From Actinoplanes sp. NBC_00393 (lineage in GTDB: Bacteria; Actinomycetota; Actinomycetes; Mycobacteriales; Micromonosporaceae), in contig NZ_CP107942.1 of NCBI RefSeq assembly GCF_036053395.1, positions 1,206,501-1,270,500 of the forward strand: a DNA stretch of 64,000 nt. The letters are read 5' to 3'. Positions 1,809 through 46,143 of this stretch are shown here, piece by piece (positions within the stretch are counted from its first letter, which is position 1; each line of letters begins with the position of its first letter). A program made the translations under genes and the position numbers. The notes beneath the pieces are model-generated. The model ran no database searches. It worked only from the letters and a program-made list of their open reading frames with translations, and had not been told where the DNA came from.

Positions 1809-3547
1809 GGGCTCGTCGAAGAACAAGCCGTTGCTTGGCGGATTTCGATGCGTTGATCTGTTATGGCGGTATCGGAGGAGGAACGGGGCAGGCTGGCAGC
1901 GAAGTTTGAGGTGATCTTGCCGCATCTGGACGAGCGGCAACGCCGGTTGCTGCTGGGTGCTGAGGCTCGGGTGCTGGGGCATGGCGGGATCCGGGCGGTA
2001 GCGCGAGCTGCCGGGGTCCGGGAGGGCACGGTGGCTGCGGGCGTCGATGAGTTGGAGGCCGGGGTGGCGCCGCTGGGCCGGGTCCGCCGTGCCGGTGGCG
2101 GCCGGAAACCGGTGACCGAACATGATCCCGCTCTGATGCCGGCGTTGTTGGGGCTGGTCGAGCCGGACGAGCGGGGGGACCCGATGTCGCCGCTGCGATG
2201 GACGACGAAGTCGTTGCGCCACCTTGCGCAGGAACTGGCCGGGCGGGGTCATAAGGCCGGGCCGGACACGATCGCTGCTCTGCTGTACGGTGAGGGATTC
2301 AGCCTTCAGGGCAATGCCAAGACTCTGGAAGGCAGACGCCATCCCGACCGCGACGCCCAGTTCGGCTACATCAACGAGCAGGTCAAGGATTATCTGTCCA
2401 GCGGTGACCCGGTCGTCAGCGTCGATACGAAGAAGAAGGAACTCGTCGGCGCGTTCGCGAACAAGGGCCGCGAGTGGCGGCCTGCCGGTGAGCCGGCTGT
2501 AGTCCGCACCCACGACTTCGCCGATCCGCAGCTGGGGCAGGTGATCCCCTACGGGGTCTACGACCTGGCCGCCGACACCGGCTGGGTCGCCGTCGGCACC
2601 GACCACAACACCGCCGCGTTCGCCGTCGCCACTCTGCGCCGCTGGTGGGACGGCTACGGCCGTGACCGCTACCCGAACGCCGGACGGCTCTTGATCACCG
2701 CGGACGCCGGCGGATCCAACGGCTACCGCACTCGCGCCTGGAAAACGGATCTGGCCGCTCTCGCCGCCGAAATCGGGCTACCGATCACCGTCTGCCACTT
2801 CCCGCCCGGCACCAGTAAATGGAACCGTATCGAGCATCGCTTGTTCGCCCACATCTCGATGAACTGGCGGGCACGACCCCTGACCAGCCACGAGACCATC
2901 GTCCACACGATCGCCGCGACCACCACCAGCAGCGGGCTGCGCGTGCACGCCGAACTCGACACCGGCCACTACCCGACCGGCGTCGTCATCACCGACGAGC
3001 AGATGAGCACCCTGGCCATCGACCGTCACGACTGGCACGGCGACTGGAACTACACCCTGCGCCCCGACCCGGCCACACCCGCCGGCGAACCCGCGACAGC
3101 CCTACCACCGCTGCATCACCTGGCCGCGCTGGTGCACCCGGCCATCACCGGCATGCCCGACAGCGCATGGAACGACCTGATCAACCGGCTCACCGTTCCC
3201 CATCAAGCCCAACACGAAGCGTTCCTGCACAACCTGCGCGGCCACGCCCGGCCCCGCGGCGGCGGCCGCAAGATCCGCGTCACCCTCAGCCACCAACTAC
3301 TGGCCACCTTGCTCCACGACCGCTACCAACTGCCCCGCAAGGTCATCGCCGATCTGTTCGGCGTCGCCGGCACCACCATCAACGTCGCCATCCGCAACAC
3401 CCGCACCCTGCTCACCCAAATCCAGCACCCCATCGAACCCAGCAACATCCGCCTCACCAACCACACCGACCTCGCCGCTCACACCCGCACCGCCGGATTC
3501 ACCGCACCCGCCTTGATCAAAACAGCGAGTTAAAAATCGACGAGCCC
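1809..3547 (+). mobile_element. ISAzo13-type insertion sequence, apparently intact
   Basis: A single-gene element of about 1.74 kb. The ends are inverted: GGGCTCGTCGA at 1809-1819 and its reverse complement at 3537-3547. TAA stands outside both ends (1806-1808 and 3548-3550) and may be a three-base target duplication. The transposase fills nearly the whole interval and its frame is open. The element lies between the first ABC transporter and the inositol regulator and does not interrupt a recognisable gene. The family is assigned from the transposase, and the end assignment is from reading alone. Confidence 0.82.
1863..3533 (+). CDS. ISAzo13-family transposase
   Basis: DDE transposase of 556 residues that would cut and rejoin the ends of the surrounding element. 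Family marks are the N-terminal helical region with GGGRKPVTEHDP, the central 'SVDTKKKE' block and the 'ITADAGGSNGYR' block. By position the catalytic triad is D188 (SVDTKK), D281 (TADAGG) and E324 (NRIEHRLF). The last 160 residues add a second helical region with a helix-turn-helix look (VIADLFGVAGTTINVAI). The frame has no interruption and the ATG lies 44 bases inside the left end, so it looks functional. Its C-terminal extension is longer than the core Rhodopirellula-type DDE domain. Confidence 0.9.
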   Translation: MAVSEEERGRLAAKFEVILPHLDERQRRLLLGAEARVLGHGGIRAVARAAGVREGTVAAGVDELEAGVAPLGRVRRAGGGRKPVTEHDPALMPALLGLVEPDERGDPMSPLRWTTKSLRHLAQELAGRGHKAGPDTIAALLYGEGFSLQGNAKTLEGRRHPDRDAQFGYINEQVKDYLSSGDPVVSVDTKKKELVGAFANKGREWRPAGEPAVVRTHDFADPQLGQVIPYGVYDLAADTGWVAVGTDHNTAAFAVATLRRWWDGYGRDRYPNAGRLLITADAGGSNGYRTRAWKTDLAALAAEIGLPITVCHFPPGTSKWNRIEHRLFAHISMNWRARPLTSHETIVHTIAATTTSSGLRVHAELDTGHYPTGVVITDEQMSTLAIDRHDWHGDWNYTLRPDPATPAGEPATALPPLHHLAALVHPAITGMPDSAWNDLINRLTVPHQAQHEAFLHNLRGHARPRGGGRKIRVTLSHQLLATLLHDRYQLPRKVIADLFGVAGTTINVAIRNTRTLLTQIQHPIEPSNIRLTNHTDLAAHTRTAGFTAPALIKTAS

Positions 3548-9852: not shown

Positions 9853-10854
9853 ATGTCCAGATATGGGAAACGGGCGGTTGCGGCCGCCGTGGCGATCGGC
9901 CTCGCGGTCACCGTGGGCGCCTGCAGCAGCTCCGGCGGCAAGGAGGCCGAGGAGAACGCCGAGGGCCTGTCCGGTGGCAAGGCCGACACCCCCACCATGA
10001 CGGTCGCCATGATCACCCACGCGGCGCCCGGCGACACCTTCTGGGACATCATCAAGAAAGGCGCCCAGTCAGCGGCCACCAAGGACAACGTCGACCTGAA
10101 GTACTCGGCCGACCCGAGCTCGGCGAACCAGGCGACGCTGATCCAGAGCGCCATCGACAGCAAGGTCGACGGCATCGCGGTCACCCTGCCGGACCCGCCG
10201 GCGCTGGTGCCGGTGGTGCAGAAGGCGATCGCGGCCGGCATCCCGGTGATCGCGTTCAACGCCGGCATCACCTCGTTCGAGGACTCCGGGGCGCTGGCGT
10301 ACTTCGGTTCGGACGAGTCGGTCGCCGGTGAGACCGCCGGGCAGCGGGCCGCCCAGGACGGCGCCAAGCATGTGCTGTGCGTGGTCCAGGAGCAGGGCCA
10401 GGTGCAGCTGGAGGCGCGCTGCGACGGCGTGCAGAAGGGCTTCGGCGGCGGCGCGTACGACAAGATCTACGTCAACGGCCGGGACATGCCGTCGGTGCAG
10501 ACCACGATCGCCACGAAGCTGCAGCAGGACAAGACGATCGACCTGGTCATCACCCTCGGCGCGCCGTTCGCGCTGGCCTCGATCCAGGCGGTCAAGGACA
10601 CCGGCAGCCAGGCGAAGGTCGCCACCTTCGACTTCAACCCGCAGATCCCGGAGCAGATCCAGTCCGGCGCGCTGCAGTGGGCCATCGACCAGCAGCCGTT
10701 CCTGCAGGGCTATTCGGCGGTCGACGGACTGTGGCTCTACAAGAACAACGGCAACGTGCTCGGCGGTGGCAAGGCCACGCTGACCGGGCCGTACCTGGTC
10801 GACAAGAACAACGTCGACTTCGTCGCGAAGTTCGCGGCGGCCGGTAACCGGTAG
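9853..10854 (+). CDS. Inositol-type ABC transporter substrate-binding lipoprotein
   Basis: Secreted, lipid-anchored binding protein of 333 residues. The signal peptide ends in the lipobox VGAC, so the mature protein starts at C25. The rest is a type I periplasmic-binding fold (Peripla_BP_4), with MITHAAPGDTFWDIIKKGA at the first strand and DGIAVTLPDPPALVPVV. ATG follows AAGGAGAG. It is flanked by inositol catabolic genes and followed by its own permease and ATPase, so myo-inositol or a derivative is the likely ligand. A strong hairpin follows the gene, which may raise its mRNA level above the permease. Confidence 0.88.
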   Translation: MSRYGKRAVAAAVAIGLAVTVGACSSSGGKEAEENAEGLSGGKADTPTMTVAMITHAAPGDTFWDIIKKGAQSAATKDNVDLKYSADPSSANQATLIQSAIDSKVDGIAVTLPDPPALVPVVQKAIAAGIPVIAFNAGITSFEDSGALAYFGSDESVAGETAGQRAAQDGAKHVLCVVQEQGQVQLEARCDGVQKGFGGGAYDKIYVNGRDMPSVQTTIATKLQQDKTIDLVITLGAPFALASIQAVKDTGSQAKVATFDFNPQIPEQIQSGALQWAIDQQPFLQGYSAVDGLWLYKNNGNVLGGGKATLTGPYLVDKNNVDFVAKFAAAGNR

Positions 10855-10861
10855 CCGTTCC

Positions 10862-10885
10862 GCCCGGGGCCGGCAGGCCCCGGGC
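10862..10885 (+). terminator. Intra-operon hairpin after the binding-protein gene
   Basis: GCCCGGGGCC pairs perfectly with GGCCCCGGGC around a GGCA loop. It lies between the binding-protein gene and the permease gene of one operon. It probably acts as a partial terminator or as a 3' stabiliser that gives more binding protein than membrane components. Confidence 0.65.
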
Positions 10886-10918
10886 ACTGAACTCTTCTGA
10901 AGGAATCCGGAGATCGTC

Positions 10919-11979
10919 ATGAGTTCAACTCTCGAGACCAGACCCGGTCCGCCGCCGGCCGCGCCGGCGGACGAGCGGGTCGCCCGGCAGTCCCCGCTGT
11001 CCCGCCTGCTCGCCCGGCCCGAAGTGGGCGCCCTGGTCGGCGCGATCCTGATCTACATCGTCTTCTTCATCGTCGCCCCGCCGTTCCGCCAGCCCGAATC
11101 CCTGTCGTCGGTGCTCTACGTCAGCTCCACGTTCGGCATCATGGCGGTCGCCGTGGCCCTGCTGATGATCGGCGGCGAGTTCGACCTGTCCGCCGGCGTC
11201 GCGGTCACCTCGTCGGCGCTGTTCGCGTCGATGTTCGCCTACCAGTTCACCCTGAACCTGTGGGTCGGCGTCGCCGCCGCGCTGGTGTTCTCCCTGCTCG
11301 TCGGCTTCATCAACGGCTACCTCGTGGTGAAGACGGGCATACCCAGCTTCCTGGTCACCCTCGGCACCTTCTTCATGCTGCGCGGCCTCAACCTGGCGCT
11401 GACCAAGGCGGTCACCGGCAACGTGGCCACCAACGACGTGTCGAACATGGACGGTTTCGACTCCGCGCAGAAGGTGTTCGCCTCGTCGTTCTCGATCGGC
11501 AGCGTCTCCATCCGGATCACCCTGCTGTGGTGGATCCTGTTCGTCGCCGTCGGCACGTGGCTGCTGCTGCGTACCCGGATCGGGAACTGGATCTTCGCGG
11601 TCGGCGGATCGGCGCCCAGCTCGCGGGCGGTCGGCGTGCCGGTCAACAAGGTCAAGATCGGCCTCTTCATGGGCGTCGGATTCCTGGCCTGGTTCATGGG
11701 CATGCACAACCTGTTTGCCTTCAACACCGTGCAGTCCGGCGGTGGCCTCGGCAACGAGTTCATCTACATCGTCGCCGCAGTGGTCGGCGGCTGCCTGCTC
11801 ACCGGCGGCTACGGCTCGGTGATCGGCGCGGCCATCGGCGCCTTCATCTTCGGCATGACCAACCTCGGCATCGTCTACGCCGGCTGGGATCCCGACTGGT
11901 TCTACTTCTTCCTCGGCGCGCTGCTGCTCGGCGCGATCCTGCTCAATTCCTTCGTCCGCAGACGAGCGGAGGCCATGCG

Positions 11980-11983
<4 letters not shown>
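10919..11983 (+). CDS. Inositol-type ABC transporter permease
   Basis: Membrane subunit of 354 residues of the RbsC/BPD_transp_2 type. About 40 hydrophilic residues precede the first helix at roughly 43-62. Family blocks include [19 protein letters not shown] and the C-terminal [26 protein letters not shown]. The ATG at 10919 is preceded by AAGGAATCCGGAG. The stop overlaps the ATPase start in ATGA (11980-11983), so subunit synthesis is coupled. It imports the ligand delivered by the lipoprotein encoded just upstream. Confidence 0.9.
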
Positions 11984-12824
<841 letters not shown>

Positions 12825-12828
<4 letters not shown>

Positions 12829-13733
12829 CCAGGCTTCAACTCGGCAGCTGCCCCGACTCGTGGGGAGTGTGGTTCGCCGACGACCCGCGCCAGACACCCT
12901 GGCACCGGTTCCTCGACGAGCTGGCCGGCGTCGGCTACGAGTGGCTGGAGCTCGGCCCGTACGGCTACCTGCCCACCGACCCGGCCCAGCTCAGCGACGA
13001 GCTGGCCCGCCGCAACCTGCGGGTCGCCGGCGGCACCATGCACGGCTACAGCGGCCTGCACCGCGCCGGCGACTTCCCGGAGATTCTGGAACGGACCCGG
13101 CTGGTCGCCGAACTGACCGCCGCCCTCGGCGCGGAGCACCTGGTGTTCGTGCCGGTGCCCGGCTACCGCGACGACGTGACCGGCGCCTACCTGGAACCGG
13201 GCACCCTCGACGACGACGCCTGGAAGACGCTGGTCCGCGGCACCGACGAACTCGGCCGGGTGCTGTTCGAGGAGTACGGTCTGCGCCTGCAGTTCCACCA
13301 CCACGCCGACAGCTACGTGGAGACCCGCCCGCAGATCGACCGGCTGCTCGCCGAGACCAACCCGGCGTACGTGTCACTCTGCCTGGACACCGGGCACCTC
13401 GCGTACGGCAGCGGGGACGCGGCGATGCTGATCGCCGAGCACCCGGACCGGGTCGGCTACCTGCACATCAAACAGATGGACCCGGCCATCGTCCGGCGCG
13501 CCCGCACCGAGGACCTCGCCTTCGGCCAGGCCGTCGCGATGGGCGCCAGCTGCGAACCACCCGCCGGCGAACCCGACATCCCGACCGTCGTCGAGGCCCT
13601 GCGACAGCGCGGTCAGGACACCTTCGTGATCGTCGAGCAGGACATGTACCCGGTCGAGTTCGACAAGCCGGCGCCGATCGCCGCCCGCACCTACGCGTAC
13701 CTGCGTTCCTGCGGGATCGGGGAGTCATCGTGA
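12825..13733 (+). CDS. iolE: Inosose dehydratase (2-keto-myo-inositol dehydratase)
   Basis: TIM-barrel metal-dependent enzyme of 302 residues that dehydrates 2-keto-myo-inositol, the second catabolic step. The start [15 protein letters not shown] is typical of IolE. Probable metal ligands are in [28 protein letters not shown] and [12 protein letters not shown] overlaps the ATPase stop by four bases and the end overlaps iolG in the same way. Position between importer and iolG supports the assignment over other sugar isomerases of the AP_endonuc_2 family. Confidence 0.87.
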
Positions 13734-14743
13734 TCCGGGTGGGCGTGATCGGCACCGGCATGATCGGGCAGGACCACATCCGGCGGATGACGACCGTGCT
13801 GTCCGGTGTCGAGGTGACCGCGGTGTCCGACGTCAACGCCGAAGCGGCCACCGCCGTCGCCGAGCAGATCGGGGCGCGGGTGCACACCACCGGCCAGGAG
13901 CTGATCGTCTCGCCGCAGGTCGACGCGGTGGTGGTCTGCTCCTGGGGACCCACCCATGAGCAGTACGTGCTCGCCGCCATCGCCGCCGGCAAACCGGTCT
14001 TCTGCGAGAAACCCCTGGCCACCACCACCGAGGCATGCCGGCGGATCATCGAGGCGGAGACCGCGTACGGCAGCCGGCTCGTCCAGGTCGGCTACATGCG
14101 CCGCTACGACAGCGCCTACCGCGCGCTCAAGGCGGTCCTGGACACCGGGCAGATCGGTACGCCACTGATGATGCACTGCGCCCACCGGAATCCGAGCGTG
14201 CCCTCGTTCTACGAGAAGGACATGGCGATCACCGACACCGCGGTGCACGAGATCGACATGATCCGCTGGATGCTCGCCGACGAGGTCGCGGCCGTGCGGG
14301 TCCTGGTGCCCCGCCGCAGCCGCAACGGCGGGCCGCTGCAGGATCCGCTGTTCTTCGTGATGGAGATGGCCGGTGGGGCGATCGCGGACGTGGAGATCTC
14401 GGTCAACATCCGTTACGGGTACGACATCCGCGGGGAGATCGTCGGCGAGGACGGGACCGCGGCGCTGGGGGAGCTGAGCCCGCTCGTGGTCCGGCACGCG
14501 GGGCAGGTCGCCACGCCGGTGCCGGCCGACTGGCGGGAACGGTTCCTTCGGGCGTACGACATCGAGCTGCAGGAATGGATCAACGGGATCGCCGGCGGCG
14601 CGGCGGCCACCGGGCCGAGCAGCTGGGACGGGTACGCGGCCGCGGTCGTCTCGGACGCCGGGGTGAGCGCTCTGCGCAGCGGGGAGCGCGTACCGATCGA
14701 TCTGATGGACAAGCCCAAGCTGTACGCGGAGGTGGCCGCATGA
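13730..14743 (+). CDS. iolG: Inositol 2-dehydrogenase
   Basis: Gfo/Idh/MocA-family NAD-dependent oxidoreductase of 337 residues that oxidises myo-inositol to 2-keto-inositol. The Rossmann motif GVIGTGMIGQDH is at the N-terminus. The catalytic block FCEKPLATT carries the conserved Lys. The DTAVHEIDMIRWML block carries the catalytic Asp and His of the family. GTG at 13730 overlaps the iolE stop (GTGA) and is preceded by GGGGAG. The stop overlaps the next ATG. Specificity for myo- against scyllo- or chiro-inositol cannot be read from sequence alone. Confidence 0.88.
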   Translation: MIRVGVIGTGMIGQDHIRRMTTVLSGVEVTAVSDVNAEAATAVAEQIGARVHTTGQELIVSPQVDAVVVCSWGPTHEQYVLAAIAAGKPVFCEKPLATTTEACRRIIEAETAYGSRLVQVGYMRRYDSAYRALKAVLDTGQIGTPLMMHCAHRNPSVPSFYEKDMAITDTAVHEIDMIRWMLADEVAAVRVLVPRRSRNGGPLQDPLFFVMEMAGGAIADVEISVNIRYGYDIRGEIVGEDGTAALGELSPLVVRHAGQVATPVPADWRERFLRAYDIELQEWINGIAGGAAATGPSSWDGYAAAVVSDAGVSALRSGERVPIDLMDKPKLYAEVAA

Positions 14744-15603
14744 AGATCGCCCTCGACCCGTACATGCTCCGATCCGTTCCCCTGCTGGAATTGCCCCGCA
14801 CGGTGGCCGAACTGGGCTACCGCTACATCGAGATGTCGCCGCGCGACGACTTCCTGCCGTTCTTCCTGCACCCAAGGGTCGACCGGGCCGGGGTGCAGGC
14901 GTTCCGCCGGGAGCTGGCGGCGGCGCAGGTCGAGGTGGCGTCGGTGCTGCCGCTCTACCGCTGGTCCGGGCCGGACGAGGACGAGCGGCAGTCGGCGGTC
15001 CGGTACTGGAAACGGGCCATCGAGATCACCTCGGAGCTCGGGGTGAGCGTGATGAACTCCGAGTTCAACGGCCGGCCGTCGGAGGCGTCGTCGAGCGAGG
15101 CCCAGTTCTGGCGGTCCATGGAGGAGCTGCTGCCGGTCTTCGAGCGGGAGGGCGTACGGCTGGTGCTGGAACCGCACCCGGACGACTTCCTCGAGGACGG
15201 CATCGGCGCGATCAACCTGATCCGCGGCATCAACTCCGACCTGGTCAGCTTCCTGTACTGCGCGCCGCACACCTTCCACCAGGGCGGCGACCTGGAAGCC
15301 ATCATCCGGCACGCCGGGCCGCTGCTCACCCAGCTGCACCTGGCCGACTCGTTCGACCACCGCGCCTCATCCGGCCTGCGCTACATCGTCAACCCGCCCG
15401 GCTCGACCGCGCGCGTACACCAGCACCTGGACATCGGCCAGGGCGAGGTGGACTGGGACCTGTTCTTCCGCACCCTCGCCGACGTCGGCTTCGACGGCAT
15501 CGCCACGGTCTGCGTCTTCGCCTGGGAGGAACGCGCCCAGGACAGCGCCCGCCACAACCTCGCCGAGGTCAACCGCTACCTGGAGAAATACCCGCACCCT
15601 TAG
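14740..15603 (+). CDS. Sugar phosphate isomerase/epimerase, IolH/IolE-like
   Basis: Second TIM-barrel (AP_endonuc_2) protein of the operon, 287 residues, last gene in the unit. It starts MKIALDPYMLRSVPLLELP, with EMSPRDDFLPFF soon after. Probable metal ligands are E in MNSEFNG, the EPHPDDFLEDG block, H in QLHLADSFDH and the C-terminal CVFAWEE. It resembles IolH-type proteins found at the ends of actinobacterial iol operons, whose reaction is not settled. It might epimerise another inositol or inosose stereoisomer. No iolB is present in the window, but this fold differs from the cupin fold of IolB. Confidence 0.75.
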   Translation: MKIALDPYMLRSVPLLELPRTVAELGYRYIEMSPRDDFLPFFLHPRVDRAGVQAFRRELAAAQVEVASVLPLYRWSGPDEDERQSAVRYWKRAIEITSELGVSVMNSEFNGRPSEASSSEAQFWRSMEELLPVFEREGVRLVLEPHPDDFLEDGIGAINLIRGINSDLVSFLYCAPHTFHQGGDLEAIIRHAGPLLTQLHLADSFDHRASSGLRYIVNPPGSTARVHQHLDIGQGEVDWDLFFRTLADVGFDGIATVCVFAWEERAQDSARHNLAEVNRYLEKYPHP

Positions 15604-15662: not shown

Positions 15663-16616
15663 GTGTCGCAACATCCCGACGTCGTCTTCGAGACCGAGGC
15701 CGCCTTCCCGGTCCTGCAGCATCTCCGGTCCGCGCTGGCCCGCCGCGACTGGCCGGGCTGCCGCACCGTGCTCGATTCCGGCAGCTCCATTCTGCGGACC
15801 AACCTGATCCGCTGCGCCGGAACCGGCGACGAGCAGTTCCTGCGCGAGGTCTTCCGCCACGATCCGGGCGACGGCGCGGCCGCGGCGATGCTCGGCGCCT
15901 GCCTCACCCACGTCGGCTGGGAGATCCGTGGCAGCGGGTGGGCCAAGGACGTGAGCCGTGAGCAGTGGGACGGCTTCCACGCCCGGCTGCGCGAGGCCGA
16001 GCAGGTGATGATCGAAGGTGCCGCACGCTCGCCCCGGGATCCGGCGATCTGGACCTGCCGGTTGACCACGGCACGCGGCCTGGAGGCCGGGCACGCCGAG
16101 GCCCGGCGCCGCTACGACCGGGCCGCCGAGATCGACCCGCACCACTACCCGGCGCAGACCACCCTGATTCAGCAGCTCTACCCGAAGTGGGGCGGAACCT
16201 GGGAGGAGGTCCACGGGTTCGCCCGCGAGGCGATGCTCGCCGCACCGGCGGGTGGGCTGCAGGGCGGGCTGGTCGCCGAGGCGCACATCGAGCACTGGGT
16301 CACCCTGCGGCGCAAGGACAAGGACGAGGCGACCGCGTACCTGCACAGCCCCGCCGTGCGCGACGAGATCTACGAGGCCGCGCACCGCTCGGTCGGCTCG
16401 CCGCAGTTCCGGCGCGAATGGGGCTGGGTGGGCGTCGGCAACGAGTTCGCCTTCCTGTTCAGCGAGTACGGCGACCGGGCCGCGGCGGCCTGGCTGTTCA
16501 ACGGCCTCGGCACGCTGGCCACGAAGCATCCCTGGCACTGGCTGCGCGGTGAGGTCGTCGACAACATCCGCGAGCGCCGGGCCTGGGCACGCGGCGAGGG
16601 GGAGCTGACCCGATGA
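15663..16616 (+). CDS. TPR-like protein coupled to the M16 peptidase
   Basis: Cytoplasmic protein of 317 residues, no signal peptide or membrane segment. I do not recognise a named family. It is helical throughout, and the middle part reads like tetratricopeptide repeats: RDPAIWTCRLTTARGLEAG and EIDPHHYPAQTTLIQQLYPKWGG. Tryptophan-rich segments near the end (REWGWVG, HPWHWLRGE) look like a conserved surface. It begins at GTG 15663. The stop overlaps the M16 gene start in ATGA at 16613-16616, so the two products are made together and may form a complex. Confidence 0.75.
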   Translation: MSQHPDVVFETEAAFPVLQHLRSALARRDWPGCRTVLDSGSSILRTNLIRCAGTGDEQFLREVFRHDPGDGAAAAMLGACLTHVGWEIRGSGWAKDVSREQWDGFHARLREAEQVMIEGAARSPRDPAIWTCRLTTARGLEAGHAEARRRYDRAAEIDPHHYPAQTTLIQQLYPKWGGTWEEVHGFAREAMLAAPAGGLQGGLVAEAHIEHWVTLRRKDKDEATAYLHSPAVRDEIYEAAHRSVGSPQFRREWGWVGVGNEFAFLFSEYGDRAAAAWLFNGLGTLATKHPWHWLRGEVVDNIRERRAWARGEGELTR

Positions 16617-18292
16617 TCCACTACTACGACGTCGACGGCCTCCCCGTCCTCTACACCGCGACCGACGGGCCGCTGCACGCCGGCATCGCGTTCCGGGTCG
16701 GTCTCGCCGACGAGCCGCTGGCCCGGCGCGGCCTGACCCACCTCGTCGAACACCTCGCACTGAACTTCCGCGGCGTCGCCGACAACCACAGCTACAGCAC
16801 CGTCGGCGACGAGATCACCTACTTCCACATCGGCGGCTCCGAGACCGAGGTGGTCCAGTTCCTCAACGGGGTCTGTGCGGCCCTGTCCGACCTGCCGGTG
16901 CACCGCCTGCCGATCGAAAAGGACATCCTGCGCGTCGAACAGCACAGCCAGCAGGTCGCGGTCGACGAGATGCTGGCCCTGCACCGGCACGGCGCCCGCG
17001 ACTTCGGCATGCGCGGCTACCTCGAGATGGGTCTGAGCAACATCACCCCGGAGGTGTTGCGGGCCTGGACCGCCCGGTTCTTCAACCGGGCCAACGCGGC
17101 AGTGTGGATCTCCGGCCGGACTTTGCCGGCCGGGTTGCAGCTGACGCTTCCCGGCGGCTACCGGCAGCCGGTGCCCGCCGCGTCGTCCGCACTTCCGGAA
17201 CGCCCGGCGCACCTGTCCGGTCCGCCCGGCCTGTTGACCTGGAACGCCGTGGTGCGCCGCCGGCCCGCCGCCGCGGTCTTCGCCGGCGTGCTGCAGCGGG
17301 CCATGTTCCGGTCGCTGCGCCAACAGGCCGGCATCTCCTACACCGTCGCCGCCGGCCATGACACCCGCGGCGACGGCACGACGGTGCTCACCGCCACCGC
17401 GGACGCGCTACCGGCCAAACAGTCCGCCGTCGTCGGCGGTTTCGTCGACGTGATGGCCTCGCTGCGCTACGTCGGCGCGGACCCGGCCGAGGTCACCGCG
17501 GTCGTCGGGCAGCGCTGCGAGAGCATCGCGGACGCCGCCCGGCAGGGCACGCTGCTGCCCGGCCTGGTGTGCGACCTGCTCACCGGTCAACCGGTGCGCG
17601 ACGCGGAACAACAGCTGGCCGAAACTCGGGCGGTCACCGCCGAAGAGGTACGCGAGGTGGCCGCCGAGGCCTGGGCCGACGGCCTGCTGATGGCGCCGGC
17701 CGAAGCCAACGCCGCCTGGACCGGACTCGTGCCGGTGCCGACCCGCTCACCGTTCGCGGTGACCGGCACGGCGTACCCGGCGATCGCCGACGACGAGATC
17801 CGCCTCGTCGTCGGCCGGCCCGGTATCTCCCTGGTCAGCGGCGACTCGGACTGCGTCACCGTCCGCTTCGACGAATGCGCGGCCATGCTCGCCCACGCCG
17901 ACGGCGGCCGCCGGCTGATCGGCAACGACGGCCTCACCGTCCCGATCGAGCCGACCCTGTTCGAGAACGGGACGGCCGTGGTCGCGCAGGTCGACGCCCG
18001 CATCCACCCGGATCTGCGCATCGACCTGCCGGCTCGGGACGCCGAGGACATCCCGCAGCCGAAGGTCGAGGAGACCTGCTGCGACGACGACTGCTGCGAC
18101 AGCGACTGCTGCGACGGGGACTGCTGCTCCGACGACGACTGCGCCGGTGACTGCTGCGATCAGTGCTGCGACGACGACTGCTGTGACAGCGACTGCTGCG
18201 ATGGGGACTGCTGCTCCGACGACGCCTGCCAGGGCAGGTGCTGCACCGGCGGGCGCGTCGGTCGCGCATTGCGTCGCTTGCGAAGGCGCTGA
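16613..18292 (+). CDS. M16-family metallopeptidase with a cysteine-aspartate-rich C-terminal tail
   Basis: Protein of 559 residues. Residues 1-180 are an insulinase-type M16 domain with the inverted zinc motif H43-L-V-E46-H47 and a third ligand candidate E119, 72 residues on. Residues 200-385 look like the second M16 half, with LRQQAGISYTVAAG. A further domain spans about 400-475. Residues 489-544 are an extreme tail with 22 Cys and 21 Asp, mostly CC pairs split by two or three acidic or small residues. A 20-residue block at 489-508 recurs at 518-537. The protein ends in a basic stretch. No signal peptide is visible. Zinc or other metal storage, redox sensing, or a fused substrate region are all possible. 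Confidence 0.82.
   Translation: MIHYYDVDGLPVLYTATDGPLHAGIAFRVGLADEPLARRGLTHLVEHLALNFRGVADNHSYSTVGDEITYFHIGGSETEVVQFLNGVCAALSDLPVHRLPIEKDILRVEQHSQQVAVDEMLALHRHGARDFGMRGYLEMGLSNITPEVLRAWTARFFNRANAAVWISGRTLPAGLQLTLPGGYRQPVPAASSALPERPAHLSGPPGLLTWNAVVRRRPAAAVFAGVLQRAMFRSLRQQAGISYTVAAGHDTRGDGTTVLTATADALPAKQSAVVGGFVDVMASLRYVGADPAEVTAVVGQRCESIADAARQGTLLPGLVCDLLTGQPVRDAEQQLAETRAVTAEEVREVAAEAWADGLLMAPAEANAAWTGLVPVPTRSPFAVTGTAYPAIADDEIRLVVGRPGISLVSGDSDCVTVRFDECAAMLAHADGGRRLIGNDGLTVPIEPTLFENGTAVVAQVDARIHPDLRIDLPARDAEDIPQPKVEETCCDDDCCDSDCCDGDCCSDDDCAGDCCDQCCDDDCCDSDCCDGDCCSDDACQGRCCTGGRVGRALRRLRRR
18077..18244 (+). repeat. Duplicated Cys/Asp-coding block
   Basis: The 60-base block at 18077-18136 recurs at 18164-18223. 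The protein repeat is exact over 20 residues, while some codons differ silently (TGC to TGT, GAC to GAT). This suggests an old duplication kept under selection at the protein level. Confidence 0.7.
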
Positions 18293-28991: not shown

Positions 28992-31900
28992 TCAATCCCG
29001 TAGGTACTTCGCGCGTTCCTGCGGAGTGAAGTCCCGTGTGGTCCGCTGCCGGGCCAGCGCGAGCACCTCGTCGATCGGTCGGCACACCTCGCACGGAGTG
29101 AAGTGGACAGTCGTCCCGTGCAGTGTGATGAGCTGCAGGCCGTCGGCGCTGAAGGCGATCTGCCGGGCGTCAGCGGGATGATCGAAGGTCAGGACCTCGC
29201 CGTTGCCGTCGGTGTTCCACAGGCGTACGACGTCGTCGGTGCTGACGCCGGCGATCAGTTTGCCGTCCGGGCTGAAGCTCATCGCCGAGATGGTCCCCAC
29301 GGTGCCGGTGAGCACGACCGGGTCCTCGTCGCGGTCGATGGCCCAGACCCGGATCGCCCCGTCGTCGCCCGCGACGGCCAGCCGCCGACCGTCCCGGCTG
29401 AACCGGATCTGGTCGGGATGCCCGCTGTGGCCCTGCAACGTCCGCACCGTCCGCCCGGTCTCCGGATCCCACAGCACCAACTCCTGCGATTGCTGCAGCA
29501 TCGCCATGAGGGTTCCGTCATGGTTGATCGCGATCGGGCCCGAGCCGGCGGCCCGGCTCACCACCTGCCGATCGCCGGCCCGCCACACGCGGATCTGGAG
29601 GTCGCCGCAGTCGACGGCGAGCACGTGTCCGTCGTCGCTCAAGACAGCTTGGTTGGTGGTGAACATGGCGAGCCGGCGCCCGCATTCGAGAGTCGCCGGT
29701 TCAGTTCCTGCCGCGGTCTGCCACCAGCGGATCTCCTCACTGTCGACGCTCGTCGCCGCGACGCCGTGCCCGCCTCCGCTGACGGTGAGGAACCGGAAGT
29801 CCTTCGAAACGTCGCGCAGCGTCGTCGCGTTCTGCGGCGTACGGGTGGGAAAGATCGAGAGCACGCCGGACGCCGAGGACGCCGCCGCGACGGTGCCGTC
29901 GCCGCTGAGCTGAGCCGCTATGCCCTGCGACGGCGGGGGTAGCTCGACCGTCGTGCGGTTGGTGGCGGCGGTGTCCCACACCCGTACGGTGGAGTCGTCG
30001 CTGCCGGACAGGAGCCGGCGGCTGTCCGGGCTGAACGCCAGGTCCCACACGGCGCCGCGGTGACCGCGCAGCGCGAGTCCGCGGGTGTTGTCGGAGACGT
30101 CCCAGACCCGCACGGTCCGCTCCGTTCCGGCGGCGATGCGGCGTCCGTCCGGGCTGAACGCCACGCTGGCGTACTGGAACTCCTGGCCGCGGTAGAGCTC
30201 CGGTCCGGTGCGCCCGTCAGTGGACCACACTCGGACACCCTCGAATCCGCCGGCGGCGACCCGGCGCCCGTCCGGGCTGACTGCCACCGAGGTGGGCAGG
30301 ATTCCCGCCGGCTGACGAATGATGACTGGCGCGGCCGTACTGTCGAGGTCCCAGATCCTGATGGTGCCGTCATCTGCGGCAGCCGCCAGCAGCCCGTCCG
30401 GGCCGAAGGCGACGTTGCCGGAGCACCCCGTGTAGGGCATTGATCTCGGTGAACCGCCTCGGGTGGTGTCCCAGACGTGCACCATCGAGTCGTTGCCGAT
30501 CGCCGCGACCCAGCGGCCGTCCGGGCTGTAGGCCACGTCGCCCACACCGGCCGGCAGGACCGGGTTCAGCAGTCGAGGACCGTCCGGGTCCTCGGGGCGC
30601 CACAGGACGATCTGATTGCCCGAGCCTTTCCGGTCCGAACTGGCGATCGCCAGCTCACCGTCCGGGCCGAGGTCGACGAAGGTGCCTCGCACGGGCGCGG
30701 TGACCGGTGGCGTCCGGCCCTGGAGGTCCCACACCCGGACCATGCCGTCGGTGTCCGCGCTGGCCACCCGGGAACCGCTGACGGCGACCGAATAGACCTC
30801 CGCGTCGTGCGCATCCATCGTGAACGTCGAGCGTGCGTCGGCCGTGGCCTGGCGCAGCACCGACTCGGTCTGCGAATCCGGATGAATACGGTACGCCTGC
30901 GATGCGAGCAGCAGCGCCAGCTCAGGATCGGTCATCCGTTCGGCCCGCGCGCCCGCCGCCAGCTCCCGGGCCACGGCCCGGTCCCGCTCGGCCGCGGCGC
31001 GCCGCGCGGAAACGACCGCGCCGGTTGCGAGCACGCAGACGACAGCCATGACCGCGGCGAGTCCGGCGAAAACCCAGCGGGTACGACGCTGACGTAGCCG
31101 CGCCTTACCGTCGCGTAACGCGCGGCCGGCTTCCAGGAAATCCCGTTCCGCTGCGCTCAGGGCGATGACTCCGGCGTCCACCGCCTCCACGGTGCTGGAC
31201 AGCCGAAGTCCTCGGTACAACGCGCCCTCGTCGCGGCCCAGCGACTCCCAGGCGGCGGCCGCCTCGGTGAGTTGGCGGTGCAGCCGCAGGCCGGCCCGGC
31301 TCTCCTCCACCCAGCCACGCAGCCGCGGCCACGCCCGGATCAGCGCCTCATGCGCGATCTCCACGGTGTCACGGTCGGTGCTGACCAGCCGCGCGGCGGT
31401 GAACGCGTCGATCACCGCCGTCGCCGACTCGATCGTTCCCATTTCAGCGCGGCTCAGCCGCCGTCGGGTGATCAACCCGTCGGTCCCGACGTCAACCATC
31501 CGCAGCAGCAGTCGCTGGGCGACGAGCCGTTCGGGCTCGGGCAGCCGCTCATACGTCTGTTCCGCGGTGTGGGCCACCGCCCCGGCCACACCCCCCGCGG
31601 CCTGGTATCCGGCCAGGGTGACCATCGCGCCCTGGCGGCGGCGCCACGCCTCGCGCAGCGCGTGCGCCGCCAGTGGCAGCGCGCCCGGGGAGTCGGCCAC
31701 CTCGGCCACGATCGTGGCCACCAGCGCCCCCTCCACCCGGGCCCCGTACTGCTCGGCCGGCCTGGTCACCGCCTCGCGCAGCTCCGCCGGGCTCATCCCG
31801 CCGATCAGCATCTGCGCGTCCGCCAGCACGGTCAGCAGCTCGGGGTGCTCGGTGAACCGGGCGTAGTGGTCGGCGCGCACCGCCAGCACCACCCGCGCCC

Positions 31901-32696
31901 GGCTGTCCGGCCCGCGGCACATCGCCAGCAACGCCGCGACGAAATCCGCCCGCTCGGCCGGATCGGCGCAGGTCGCGAAGGTCTCCTCGAACTGATCCAC
32001 CACCAACAAAAGATCTTCGGGTACGCCGCACAGGCCCTGCCGCACCAGCAGATTCGCCTGCGCCGGGTCCTTACGCAGCTCCTCCGGCAGCCCGGCGGCC
32101 GACACACCGGCATGCCGCGCGAGATGTACCGCCAGCTCTTCGATCGGGTGCGCACCCGGTGTCAACACCACCGCCGGCCCCGCGACCGCCGGGACCAGCC
32201 CCGCCCGGACCAGCGACGACTTACCGGTACCCGACGGCCCGAACACCGCCAGGAAACGCTTCTGCTGCAGTCGGCGTACCAGGTCGTCCACCAGCGTGGT
32301 GCGGCCGAAGAACAGCTGCGCGTCCTCCGGCTGGAACATCGCCAGCCCCGGATACGGCGACCGCCCGTACCCGTTCGCCGCAGCCGGGTCCTCGGCGGGC
32401 GCCACGCTCAGCCGTTCCGCCTCCCGCCAACGCCGCTCCCACTCGACGAGATCACCGTCGCACGCAGCAACGTACGCAAGGGTCACCTCCAGCGTCGGCA
32501 ACCGCCGCCCCGACGCCGCCGCCGACAACGTCGCCACCGAATAGTTCGCCCGCGCGGCCATCTGCCGGTAACCCGGCTTGCCGGCCTTCTCCCGCAACTG
32601 CCGCAGCCCGGCCGCCAGTTGCTCGACCGGGCTGTCCAGCCCGTCCAGGGGCCGCTCCGGTCTCGGCACTCCACCCTCCCCGTGACGCCCTGACAT
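28992..32696 (-). CDS. HTH-STAND ATPase-WD40 repeat protein
   Basis: Very large regulator-like protein of 1234 residues. Residues 22-80 are an XRE-type helix-turn-helix (RQLREKAGKPGYRQMAARA, LSAAASGRRLPTLE). Residues 112-500 are an nSTAND-type ATPase: Walker A GPSGTGKS at 153-160 and Walker B LLVVDQFEE ending at 238. A hydrophobic segment near 545-570 is followed by a helical arm (ELALLLASQAYR). The C-terminal 600 residues form many WD40 repeats, such as FSPDGRRIAAGTERTVRVWDVS. Such proteins act as signal-sensing switches, and some are thought to act in defence, but no target is known. It is divergent from a small secreted-protein gene. Confidence 0.88.
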   Translation of the reverse strand: MSGRHGEGGVPRPERPLDGLDSPVEQLAAGLRQLREKAGKPGYRQMAARANYSVATLSAAASGRRLPTLEVTLAYVAACDGDLVEWERRWREAERLSVAPAEDPAAANGYGRSPYPGLAMFQPEDAQLFFGRTTLVDDLVRRLQQKRFLAVFGPSGTGKSSLVRAGLVPAVAGPAVVLTPGAHPIEELAVHLARHAGVSAAGLPEELRKDPAQANLLVRQGLCGVPEDLLLVVDQFEETFATCADPAERADFVAALLAMCRGPDSRARVVLAVRADHYARFTEHPELLTVLADAQMLIGGMSPAELREAVTRPAEQYGARVEGALVATIVAEVADSPGALPLAAHALREAWRRRQGAMVTLAGYQAAGGVAGAVAHTAEQTYERLPEPERLVAQRLLLRMVDVGTDGLITRRRLSRAEMGTIESATAVIDAFTAARLVSTDRDTVEIAHEALIRAWPRLRGWVEESRAGLRLHRQLTEAAAAWESLGRDEGALYRGLRLSSTVEAVDAGVIALSAAERDFLEAGRALRDGKARLRQRRTRWVFAGLAAVMAVVCVLATGAVVSARRAAAERDRAVARELAAGARAERMTDPELALLLASQAYRIHPDSQTESVLRQATADARSTFTMDAHDAEVYSVAVSGSRVASADTDGMVRVWDLQGRTPPVTAPVRGTFVDLGPDGELAIASSDRKGSGNQIVLWRPEDPDGPRLLNPVLPAGVGDVAYSPDGRWVAAIGNDSMVHVWDTTRGGSPRSMPYTGCSGNVAFGPDGLLAAAADDGTIRIWDLDSTAAPVIIRQPAGILPTSVAVSPDGRRVAAGGFEGVRVWSTDGRTGPELYRGQEFQYASVAFSPDGRRIAAGTERTVRVWDVSDNTRGLALRGHRGAVWDLAFSPDSRRLLSGSDDSTVRVWDTAATNRTTVELPPPSQGIAAQLSGDGTVAAASSASGVLSIFPTRTPQNATTLRDVSKDFRFLTVSGGGHGVAATSVDSEEIRWWQTAAGTEPATLECGRRLAMFTTNQAVLSDDGHVLAVDCGDLQIRVWRAGDRQVVSRAAGSGPIAINHDGTLMAMLQQSQELVLWDPETGRTVRTLQGHSGHPDQIRFSRDGRRLAVAGDDGAIRVWAIDRDEDPVVLTGTVGTISAMSFSPDGKLIAGVSTDDVVRLWNTDGNGEVLTFDHPADARQIAFSADGLQLITLHGTTVHFTPCEVCRPIDEVLALARQRTTRDFTPQERAKYLRD

Positions 32697-42018: not shown

Positions 42019-45000
42019 ATGAGCGGTAGCGAACACCGGCCGTCGCCACGGTCCGGGGTCGACGTCTTCGCGGCCGACCGTGAGGTCGGAACGGATCTGG
42101 CCGGCGTCGACTGGGCGTCGACGCCGCTGGGCCCGCCGGCCGGCTGGCCGCAGAGTCTGCAGACCGCGGTCAGCATCCTGCTCTCGTCGCGGTTCCCGAT
42201 GTGGATGGCCTGGGGGCCGCAGCTGACGTTCTTCTGCAACGCCGCCTACCGCCGGGACACGCTGGGCCGTAAGTACCCGTGGGCGCTGGGCCGGCCGGCC
42301 GGCGAGGTGTGGGCGGAGATCTGGGACGACATCGGCCCGCGCATCGACACCGTGCTGACCACCGGCGAGGCGACCTGGGACGAGGCGTTGCTGCTGTTCC
42401 TGGAGCGCTCGGGGTATTCGGAGGAGTCGTACCACACGTTCTCCTACAGCCCGCTGCGCGACGACGACGGCACGCTGATCGGCATGCTCTGCGTGGTCAG
42501 CGAGGACACCGAACGGGTGATCGGCGAGCGGCGGATGGCGACGCTGCGCGATCTCGGCTCGGATCCCAGCGTGGTGCGCACCGAGCAGGAGATGCTGGCC
42601 TTCGCCGGCCGCCAGCTCGACCGCAACCTGCGGGATCTGCCGTTCACGCTGACGTACCTGTTCAGCGAGGACGGCGGCGCGCGACTGGCCGCGGCCACCG
42701 GCATCACCGCCGAGCACCCGGCGTCGGCCGCCGGGCTGTGGCCGACGGCGACGCTGGCCGCGCAGGAGCCGGTGCTGATGGCACTCGACGGCGAGGCGTT
42801 CGCCGCTCTGCCCGCCGGGGACTGGCCGGAGCCACCCACCCAGGCGCTGGTGGTGCCGCTGCTGCGGCAGGGCGGGGCGCCGTACGGGTTCCTGGTCGCC
42901 GGGCTCAACCGGTACCGGCAACTCGACGACGGCTACCGCGGCTTCGTCGAGCTGACCGCCGGCCACATCGCGGCGGGGATCGCCAGCGCCCGCAGTTACC
43001 AGGCTCAGCAACGGCGGGCCGAGGAGCTTGCCGAACTGGACCGGGCGAAGACCGCCTTCTTCTCCAACATCAGCCACGAGTTCCGTACCCCGTTGACCTT
43101 GATCATGGGCCCGGTTGAGGAGCTGCGGACCCAGTTGGCCGGCTCCGGCGACCGGGTGCACGAGGAGCTGGAGGTCATCCACCGCAACGGGCTGCGGCTC
43201 GGCAAGCTGGTCAACACGCTGCTCGACTTCTCCCGGATCGAGGCGGGCCGGATGCAGGCCCGTTACGAGCCGGTCGACCTGGCCGCCGCCACCGCTGATC
43301 TGGCGAGTGTGTTCCGTTCCGCCGTCGACCGGGCCGGCCTGACGTTCGAGGTGGACTGCCCACCGCTGCCGCAGCCGGTCTACCTGGACCGGGGCATGTG
43401 GGAGAAGGTCGTTCTCAACCTGCTCAGCAACGCCCTCAAGTTCACCTTCGACGGCGGGATCCGGGTGGCGGTGCGTGCCGGCGATGACCAGGCCGTCGTC
43501 ACCATCGCGGACAGCGGTGTCGGCGTTCCGGCGGCCGAGATGCCGCGACTGTTCGAACGCTTCCACCGCATCGAGAACGCGCGGTCCCGCTCGAACGAGG
43601 GCAGCGGCATCGGCCTGGCGCTGGTGAAAGAGCTGGTCGGCCTGCACGGCGGCACCATCACCGCGGACAGCACCCTCGGCGAGGGCACGGTCTTCACCAT
43701 CCGGCTGCGGTTCGGCACCGCGCACCTGCCGGACGACCCGGTCACCGCACCCGACGACGTCACCCCGGTCTCGGTCAACGCCGACCCGTTCCTGCAGGAG
43801 GCGCTGCGCTGGCTGCCCGCCTCCGGCCCGGCCGGGGATGCGGCGGTGCTGGCGGTGCAGCCGACCGGGCAGCCGGCCGACGGCGCGGCGGCGGTGCTGG
43901 TCGCCGACGACAACGCGGACATGCGCGACTACCTGACCCGGCTGCTGCGCGCCGCCGGGCACGACGTGACCGCGGTCAGCGACGGGCAGGCCGCCCTGGA
44001 AGCGGCCCGCCACGACGTGCCGGACGTCATCGTCAGCGACGTGATGATGCCCCGCCTCGACGGGTTGCAACTGGTCGCCGCGCTGCGCGCCGACCCGCGT
44101 ACTGCGGGGACGCCGGTGCTGCTGCTGTCGGCGCGGGCCGGGCAGGAGGCCTCCATCGAAGGGTTGGAGGCGGGGGCCGACGACTACCTGTTCAAGCCGT
44201 TCTCGGCGGCGGAGCTGCTGGCGCGCGTACGCGGCAATGTCGCCCTCGCCCGCCTGCGCAACCACCATGCCCGCTGGCGCACCGCCCTGATCGATTCGCT
44301 GCAGGAGGCGTTCTTCGTCTGCGACGACAGCGGCGCCGTCATCGAGATCAACACGGCGTTCACCGACATCCTCGGGTACGGGCCGGAGGGCCTGCCCTAC
44401 GCCCCGGTCCACCCGTGGTGGCCGGACGCGAGCCTCGACGCCGGCGGGCACCAGGCGGTCGCCGACGCCTTCGACATGCTGCTCGAACAGTCGCAGGGCA
44501 CGTACACGATCCCGGTCGTGCACCGCGACGGCCGCAGACTGTGGGCCGCGGCCTCGTTCAACCAGGTGGTCGACCCGGACACCGGCAAACGCGTCATCGT
44601 CGGCACCTTCCGCGATGTCACCGCCGAGCACTACGCCGTGCAGCAGGACAGCGCGCTGGCCGCGCTCGGCATGCACCTGTCGCGCGCCGAGAACATCACC
44701 GAGGCGCTCAGCGGCGTGCTGCGTGAGCTGCGCGACCTGTGGCAGGCGCGGTACGTGCTGGCGGCCGTCTTCGACGACTCCGGCACCCCCGGAGTGACCG
44801 CCACCGACCCCGGCGTGACCTGGGAGAACCTGTCCGAGGAGCAGCGCAGCGCGGTCCTGGCGGTGCGTGACCGGCCGGTGCTGACCTCGGCCACCGACAC
44901 CACCACGCTCACCGGCATCTCCCTGGACCATCCGGGCGGCACCATGGCCCTGTGGATCGAGCTGGCCGGCGGCCGGCCGTTCACCGCGCAGGACCAGACG

Positions 45001-46143
45001 CTGCTGGCCCTGCTGGCCGGGCACATCAGCCAGGGGCTGCACCGCATCCACCAGATCGACGAGCAGCGCGAGACCGCCCTCGCCCTGCAACGCGCCATCC
45101 TCGGGCCGGCCCAGCTGCCGTCCGGGTTCGCCGTGCGCTACCAGCCGGCCACCCGCCCGCTGAAGGTCGGCGGTGACTGGTACGACACCATCCAGCTCGC
45201 CGACGGCCGGATCGGCATCGTCGTCGGCGACTGCGTCGGGCACGGTCTGCGCGCCGCCACCGTGATGGGCCAGCTGCGCAGCGCCTGCCGGGCCCTGCTG
45301 TTGCAGGACTCCAGCCCGTCCCGCGCGCTGATGGCCCTCGACCGGTTCGCCGCCCTGCTGCCCGGCGCCGCCTGCGCCACGGTGTTCTGCGGTGTGCTAG
45401 ACCCGGTCAGCGGCCGGCTCGCCTACTCCAGCGCCGGACATCCACCGGCCATCGTCGGGCACGCCGACGGCACCACCCACCTGCTCGACCAGGGCCGGTC
45501 ACGTCCGGTCGCGATCCGTCCCGGCCTGCACCGGCCGGAAGCCGAGTACATGGTGCCGCCGCGCGCCACCCTGCTGCTCTACACCGACGGCCTGGTGGAA
45601 CGCCGGCGACAGCCGCTGACCGCGGGCATCGACGAGGCCGGCGACGCGGTCCGGCACGGCCTGCACACCCCGATCGAGGACCTGGCCACCGAGATCATGG
45701 ACCGGCTCACTCCCGAACGCGGCTACGACGACGACGTGGCGCTGCTGATCTACCGCCACCCCGGCCCGCTGGAGCTGGAATTCCCGGCCGAAGCGACCCG
45801 GCTCGCGCAGGTCCGCACGGCGCTGCGCGGCTGGCTCGACCGCGCCGGAATCGACCCGGCCACCGCGCAGAACGTGCTCGTCGCCGTCGGCGAGGCCTGC
45901 GCCAACGCGGTCGAGCACGGCCACCGCGCCAGCCCCGGCGGCCGGATCCGGCTGCGGGCCGCCGCCACCGCCAGCGACCTGCGCCTGATCATCGCCGACA
46001 GCGGCGAATGGCGGGCGCCGGACCCCGCCGCGAACCCGTACCGTGGGCGCGGCCTCAAACTGATGCACGCCTTCATGCAAGCGGTCACCGTGATTCCCGG
46101 CAAGACCGGCACTATCGTCGACATGCACACGAGGATCGCCTGA
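42019..46143 (+). CDS. Hybrid histidine kinase-receiver-PAS-GAF-PP2C-RsbW signalling protein
   Basis: Giant signalling protein of 1374 residues combining a two-component and a partner-switch system. In order: PAS-like region (20-170), GAF-like region (180-330), HisKA with H353 in SHEFRTPLTL, HATPase (about 450-575), a receiver (625-740; D629/D630, phospho-acceptor D674 in VSDVMMP, K726), a PAS domain (750-870), a GAF-like region, a SpoIIE/PP2C phosphatase (1015-1235; DWYDTIQLADG and VVGDCVGHG with metal Asp) and an RsbW-type HATPase (1255-1374). No transmembrane helix. Its substrate is probably the STAS protein encoded two bases downstream. All catalytic blocks look intact. Confidence 0.88.
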   Translation: MSGSEHRPSPRSGVDVFAADREVGTDLAGVDWASTPLGPPAGWPQSLQTAVSILLSSRFPMWMAWGPQLTFFCNAAYRRDTLGRKYPWALGRPAGEVWAEIWDDIGPRIDTVLTTGEATWDEALLLFLERSGYSEESYHTFSYSPLRDDDGTLIGMLCVVSEDTERVIGERRMATLRDLGSDPSVVRTEQEMLAFAGRQLDRNLRDLPFTLTYLFSEDGGARLAAATGITAEHPASAAGLWPTATLAAQEPVLMALDGEAFAALPAGDWPEPPTQALVVPLLRQGGAPYGFLVAGLNRYRQLDDGYRGFVELTAGHIAAGIASARSYQAQQRRAEELAELDRAKTAFFSNISHEFRTPLTLIMGPVEELRTQLAGSGDRVHEELEVIHRNGLRLGKLVNTLLDFSRIEAGRMQARYEPVDLAAATADLASVFRSAVDRAGLTFEVDCPPLPQPVYLDRGMWEKVVLNLLSNALKFTFDGGIRVAVRAGDDQAVVTIADSGVGVPAAEMPRLFERFHRIENARSRSNEGSGIGLALVKELVGLHGGTITADSTLGEGTVFTIRLRFGTAHLPDDPVTAPDDVTPVSVNADPFLQEALRWLPASGPAGDAAVLAVQPTGQPADGAAAVLVADDNADMRDYLTRLLRAAGHDVTAVSDGQAALEAARHDVPDVIVSDVMMPRLDGLQLVAALRADPRTAGTPVLLLSARAGQEASIEGLEAGADDYLFKPFSAAELLARVRGNVALARLRNHHARWRTALIDSLQEAFFVCDDSGAVIEINTAFTDILGYGPEGLPYAPVHPWWPDASLDAGGHQAVADAFDMLLEQSQGTYTIPVVHRDGRRLWAAASFNQVVDPDTGKRVIVGTFRDVTAEHYAVQQDSALAALGMHLSRAENITEALSGVLRELRDLWQARYVLAAVFDDSGTPGVTATDPGVTWENLSEEQRSAVLAVRDRPVLTSATDTTTLTGISLDHPGGTMALWIELAGGRPFTAQDQTLLALLAGHISQGLHRIHQIDEQRETALALQRAILGPAQLPSGFAVRYQPATRPLKVGGDWYDTIQLADGRIGIVVGDCVGHGLRAATVMGQLRSACRALLLQDSSPSRALMALDRFAALLPGAACATVFCGVLDPVSGRLAYSSAGHPPAIVGHADGTTHLLDQGRSRPVAIRPGLHRPEAEYMVPPRATLLLYTDGLVERRRQPLTAGIDEAGDAVRHGLHTPIEDLATEIMDRLTPERGYDDDVALLIYRHPGPLELEFPAEATRLAQVRTALRGWLDRAGIDPATAQNVLVAVGEACANAVEHGHRASPGGRIRLRAAATASDLRLIIADSGEWRAPDPAANPYRGRGLKLMHAFMQAVTVIPGKTGTIVDMHTRIA

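Follow-up and report, generated by a model that had tools for sequence, protein, structure and literature searches.

The window, the whole stretch of 64,000 nucleotides analyzed here, contains a two-gene unit on its plus strand. A gene for a TPR-like partner (15663..16616; 317 aa) is followed, with a 4-nucleotide overlap (ATGA) at the start of the second gene, by a gene for an M16B-type peptidase with a Cys- and Asp-rich tail (16613..18292; 559 aa). Directly upstream of the unit lies an inositol/rhizopine-type operon (9853-15603) with a binding protein, a permease, an ATPase, an IolG-like dehydrogenase, a sugar isomerase/epimerase-like gene (14740-15603), and a further gene (12825-13733); its NCBIfam scores are below the equivalog cutoffs. 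Elsewhere, the window carries a transposase with a DDE_Tnp_ISAZ013 domain (1863-3533; E 2.5e-141), a 1234-aa nSTAND1-WD40 protein (28992-32696, minus strand), a 998-aa NACHT protein (50821-53817), and a 1374-aa chain with GAF, HisKA, HATPase, receiver, PAS, and SpoIIE domains and a second ATPase domain (42019-46143). Proteins of the nSTAND1-WD40 and NACHT types are often linked to signaling or defense. Phage and defense families show no match to the peptidase or its partner, and no Rfam family is found within the window at gathering scores.

The core of the peptidase is, judged from its predicted model, an M16 fold of the subfamily B type. The model, built from 47 sequences, shows pLDDT block means of mostly 89 to 98 over residues 1-480, with a value of 65 for block 51-60. 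Its top PDB match in Foldseek is 3eoq (E 8.5e-21, TM-score by target of 0.73), followed by the zinc-protease and M16B entries 7v4y, 3ami, 3hdi, and 3amj. A family profile of 47 members aligns with 4nnz (E 1.8e-08), which places both the EH pair of HxxEH and the distal glutamate in register. The window protein by itself gives weaker matches: Pfam M16_C reaches 20.7 bits, below its cutoff of 23, and none of the NCBIfam M16 models matches it. The initial annotation, made from the sequence alone, had named an M16 metallopeptidase with an intact zinc site, and both the fold and the motif H43-L-V-E46-H47 in the translation (16739..16753) bear this out. Among the closest 120 of 646 homologues, which form the sample examined, H43, E46, H47, and E109 are each kept in 120/120. 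E109 (16937..16939), which aligns with the glutamate of 4nnz, is a candidate for the distal zinc ligand. R236 (120/120) and Y243 (119/120), encoded at 17318..17341 and lying 7 residues apart, are candidates for the substrate-binding R/Y pair, assigned by their spacing; this equals that of R298/Y305 of PttP1/PttP2, as given in PMC8960859.

The window protein resembles described M16B metallopeptidases such as Sphingomonas 3amj, Thermus TTHA1264/TTHA1265, and PttP1/PttP2 in its two-domain fold and in the presence of HxxEH, distal glutamate, and R/Y pair. In contrast to the PttP and Bcn pairs, in which HxxEH and R/Y are found on separate partners according to PMC8960859, the window protein carries both in one chain, which would fit a homodimer. 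It further differs from these enzymes in extra predicted strands at residues ∼385-445 and in the Cys/Asp tail.

The tail comprises residues 489-544. Of these 56 residues, 22 are Cys and 21 are Asp, a composition that agrees on recounting with the one first reported, and His is absent. The reported recurrence of residues 489-508 at 518-537 is likewise accurate, with identical protein and 2 differences in 60 nucleotides, both silent. The true modules exceed this 20-residue block: module 1 spans residues 489-517 (18077..18163; 29 residues) and module 2 spans residues 518-544 (18164..18244; 27 residues). Each contains 11 Cys in the order CC-x3-CC-x3-CC-x3-CC-x4-C-x3-CC; across the clade of tailed proteins, the pattern reads CC-x3-CC-x3-C(C/x)-x3-CC-x4-C-x3-CC, with Asp separating the Cys pairs. 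A basic end of 15 residues follows (residues 545-559; 18245..18289), with a net charge of +7 compared to -22 for residues 485-544. The tail is predicted to be disordered, with pLDDT values of <50 across most of 499-548. A chance origin is excluded by the low Cys content elsewhere in the window, 0.84% (152/18127 residues, other genes from a simple gene caller), by the open frame, and by the recurrence of the tail in 8 further proteins and in the DNA of three other genomes. As noted initially, no signal peptide is visible by eye at the N terminus.

Eight homologues carrying the tail are 58 to 76% identical to the window protein and together with it make up P0001-P0009. On a quick core tree of the 120 homologues, calculated without the tail, these nine proteins form one clade with an SH-aLRT support of 100. 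The sample divides into three C-terminal types: 9 proteins with the Cys tail, 91 with transmembrane (TM) stretches, and 20 with neither, TM stretches being predicted with our own hydropathy threshold. The TM class shows one to three such stretches, two in 66 of the 91, and none is predicted in any of the 9 tail proteins. The tail label changes once on the tree, while TM and "neither" alternate, giving 13 changes over all labels. TM-tailed Actinoplanes M16 proteins (for example, P0010 and P0011; loci L040 and L041) are ∼46 to 58% identical to the window protein and share the TPR-like partner; their C terminus consists of the predicted TM stretches, with 0 to 4 Cys after residue 484. The tail occupies the C-terminal place at which most of its close relatives have predicted membrane helices, which the initial annotation had missed, as it had the restriction of the tail to one clade. 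The exchange would have run from helix to tail, on a tree that is unrooted. At sequence level, the tail is a trait of the clade, a conserved C-terminal difference on a known enzyme type, and this clade-wide conservation makes the finding more than a repeat artifact.

The position of the tail at the site of the TM stretches is also what a role in docking or targeting would lead one to expect. Here, the acidic tail and basic end would take over from the membrane anchor, attaching the protein electrostatically or through a bound partner, and the Cys residues would serve partner contact. Four arginines of the basic end, R554, R555, R557, and R559, are indeed invariant across the nine tail proteins. 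Taken alone, such a role leaves the particularly strong constraint on Cys, the highest of any residue, unexplained, and it is regarded as rather improbable.

The constraint on the tail is centered on its cysteines. In the nine-row alignment, with gaps ignored, 20 of the 22 tail Cys columns show no variation wherever the module is present, compared to 14/34 of the other tail columns and 182/484 of the core columns. The two variable Cys columns, 500 and 529, take the equivalent place in each module. Silent TGC/TGT changes occur at 6 of the 22 Cys codons across four genomes. For 5 of 6 genome pairs, a rough pN/pS, uncorrected and based on 31 to 56 tail codons, gives the tail a lower value than the core; P0007-P0008 lies barely on this side (tail 0.526, core 0.544), and P0005-P0008 is the sole reversed pair (tail 0.574, core 0.391). 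Given the small number of codons and the lack of correction, more weight is placed on the Cys columns.

Two modules are present in 7 of the 9 tail proteins, with a single one in P0008 and P0009. The ending of module 1 is C-A/T-G-E/D-CC, shortened by two residues in P0007, and that of module 2 is C-P/Q-G-x-CC. These module-specific endings are kept in both subclades, which indicates that the doubling is probably older than the subclade split; P0008, nested among two-module rows, has probably lost one module. Over the first 20 codons, modules 1 and 2 differ at 2 of 60 nucleotides in the window copy compared to 10 in P0005 and 13 in P0007, which suggests a recent conversion between the modules of the window copy. 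The idea that TGC/GAC codons merely expanded neutrally, as low-complexity sequence within a GC-rich gene, draws on these same features, since an agreement at 58/60 nucleotides means that recent duplication or conversion does happen and since two proteins have one module only. The invariance of Cys at 58 to 76% protein identity, the silent changes in its codons, and the module signatures common to both subclades speak against it, and a neutrally expanding repeat, which the initial annotation had named as a possible refutation, is contradicted to the point of being hardly credible. Read from these alignments, the tail is under constraint and neither a one-off nor neutral, and the earlier view of it as real and unusual for M16 stands.

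Searches for relatives of the tail lead back to the M16 clade. Residues 484-559 find 7 proteins, all of them M16 proteins of the tail clade and including P0001; this search recovers 7 of the 9 known tails, missing P0006 and P0008, and is thus not exhaustive. A Pfam scan of 7 tails yields only keratin high-sulfur models, all under cutoff. No tail sequence matches a metallothionein or another Cys-rich metal-domain family (Pfam above cutoff; PDB at E up to 1), nor any PDB chain at E up to 1. No alternative frame of the DNA of TM tails resembles the tail at 12 loci (L004, L006, L007, L010, L014, L015, L016, L017, L019, L021, L028, and L030), a weak test of a frameshift or inversion origin. A literature search outside supplements and subscription journals listed no report of an M16 peptidase carrying a tail of this kind.

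At the DNA level, the pattern CCDD(D/E)CC occurs at at least 118 loci in genome contigs, with 128 matches listed. The 30 most Cys-surrounded of these listed matches were read, and none is M16-like; the 80 record titles listed include no Actinoplanes, though tail genomes exist. Dense CCDDDCC/CCCDDECC runs are found in small MAG proteins titled Clostridia or Oscillospiraceae (L099 5811-6137; L092 7600-7827; L088 7405-7896, minus strand), of which L099 and L092 show an N-terminal hydrophobic stretch and L088 shows CPxCG motifs. These proteins resemble the tail in their runs, are short, and read as unrelated to it; their Cys/Asp element is apparently convergent. A 451-aa frame at L123 (612-1967), hydrophobic in its N-terminal part and continuing with a CCDDDCCGDSCCGDDCC stretch, reads by eye like an exported, porin-like protein.

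The tail could also be a built-in precursor, a Cys-rich peptide freed by the attached or another peptidase in the manner of class III lanthipeptide maturation by M16B pairs. M16B pairs with HxxEH and R/Y are described as lanthipeptide proteases in PMC8960859. Among 294 size-matched candidates, no free-standing tail peptide is found at E up to 10, and among the selected genes scanned by the four tail loci, no lanthipeptide precursor or modification enzyme is recognized, though such peptidases can act remotely. A precursor role is considered very unlikely.

The tailed gene is rare. At E up to 0.001, the tail query matches 6 of the 67 genomes searched within the genus, and at E up to 0.0001, it matches 5 of the 354 searched within the family. 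The weak matches in G015 (L035) and G048 (L036) were rejected as short frames in DNA that looks noncoding by eye. The tail is retained in 4 of the 354 family genomes, namely the window genome (G000), G056, G105, and G029, which all belong to one of 44 genera. Tail and peptidase occur together in everything searched, in the four genomes as well as in the protein search, as the initial annotation had proposed to check. Each of the four genomes has at least 2 further M16 matches ending before the tail. A tail-less homologue in the same context, which had been named as a possible refutation, is not found in a comparison that leaves out P0002, P0003, P0004, P0006, and P0009; tail-less M16 proteins are common, and in the tail-bearing genomes they are separate copies elsewhere.

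The surroundings of the tailed copies differ, with the window copy following the inositol-type operon and those at L037, L038, and L039 lying beside other genes. The only exception among the four loci is G056 and G105, which have a nearby gene in common (82% identical; L037 4761-5174 and L038 11330-11860) with a below-cutoff DUF3040 match. The tail-less copies of G000 and G047, on the other hand, lie in a common gene order near two IMP-dehydrogenase-like genes, named from their sequences. From these different surroundings and the shared order of the tail-less copies, the tailed gene is treated as an extra paralogue.

The TPR-like partner gene belongs to the peptidase unit, a further feature absent from the initial annotation. 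The protein matches TPR_19 (E 2.2e-05; 25.1 bits at a cutoff of 25) and, below cutoff, DUF4034 (E 0.0042). Across 46 genomes, with the window included, 69 M16 places were compared, and 54 of them have a gene of this kind directly upstream. At 10 of the 15 other places a second typed M16 lies nearby, and at 5 it does not; one of these 5, in G032, is close to additional fragments of M16 and partner genes that fall outside the rule used. Three of the 46 genomes (G010, G014, and G046) show no partner among the typed rows. Numerous weaker paralogues of the partner have no listed M16 beside them, so that it is not exclusive to the M16 unit. In G029, the match to the partner of the one-module peptidase is split between two reading frames (G029:C1:3726893-3727680, minus strand; L039), which may reflect a broken gene or a sequencing error.

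Metal-ion binding or a thiol switch is the probable function of the tail. The 20 invariant thiols, the acidic spacers, and the missing export signal place soft-metal binding first. The tailed peptidase would be a soluble, presumably cytoplasmic paralogue within an Actinoplanes M16B-type family that mostly carries a C-terminal predicted helix pair, with the helix stretch exchanged in one clade for a disordered tail that usually has two modules. This tail would wrap soft metals, namely Zn, Cd, or Cu(I), like a metallothionein, and metal loading would signal to the attached peptidase when to act, probably jointly with the TPR-like partner; alternatively, the tail would shield the attached peptidase from metal stress. 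We infer the metal binding, the metal concerned, its effect on the peptidase, the cytoplasmic location, and the substrate. The tail shares dense Cys and a disordered stretch with metallothioneins but shows no sequence match to them, is Asp-rich, is fused to an enzyme, and has C-x3-C spacing instead of the CxC of metallothioneins. Its lack of His and its content of 21 Asp, unusual for a metallothionein, count against this reading. So do the neighboring genes: no metal-handling gene is recognized beside the window copy, the surroundings differ between most of the four tail loci, and the one nearby gene shared by G056 and G105 has no known metal role.

A closer working likeness is offered by the sigma factors CorE, CorE2, and OrbS, cytoplasmic proteins whose Cys-rich C-terminal regions respond to Cu, Cd/Zn, and Fe, although these regions contain 4 to 5 Cys and not 22 (both from PMC9023288). 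These proteins are transcription factors and not peptidases, and homology is not expected. Metal-dependent control of the M16 peptidase by a metallothionein-like tail module is tentatively put forward as a plausible reading that falls a little short of probable. The more specific proposal of an on-board two-module metallothionein, in which the metal or oxidation state of the 20 conserved thiols gates proteolysis and an anchor was swapped for a thiol module to turn a membrane-bound enzyme into a soluble one, is possible but doubtful.

The conservation centered on Cys is shared by a thiol-redox switch, in which the Cys pairs would become disulfide-bonded on oxidation of the cell, either inside one tail or from one peptidase chain to another, and thereby alter the activity or oligomeric state of the M16 dimer. 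According to PMC12731061, the functional form of M16B enzymes is dimeric, so that the tail could link chains. In G105, the convergent neighbor of the tailed peptidase is a 477-aa membrane-type protein (L038 7245-8678) that weakly matches DsbD_2 (E 0.00073; 19.9 bits), a family of membrane proteins related to thiol redox chemistry. This match is below the cutoff of 24.9 and found at one of four loci, with nothing similar recognized in the window, and gives a thin hint of thiol chemistry. For redox switches, a few Cys usually suffice, and vicinal Cys seldom pair together. A redox switch is considered unlikely, and metal-dependent control remains the preferred reading.

According to PMC8960859, M16B peptidases occur widely among bacteria, and what they do biologically has been unclear. 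Tailed and tail-less copies within one genome would offer a clean comparison for the control of such an enzyme, and the same comparison would bear on the possible regulation of a protease by a metal-binding tail.
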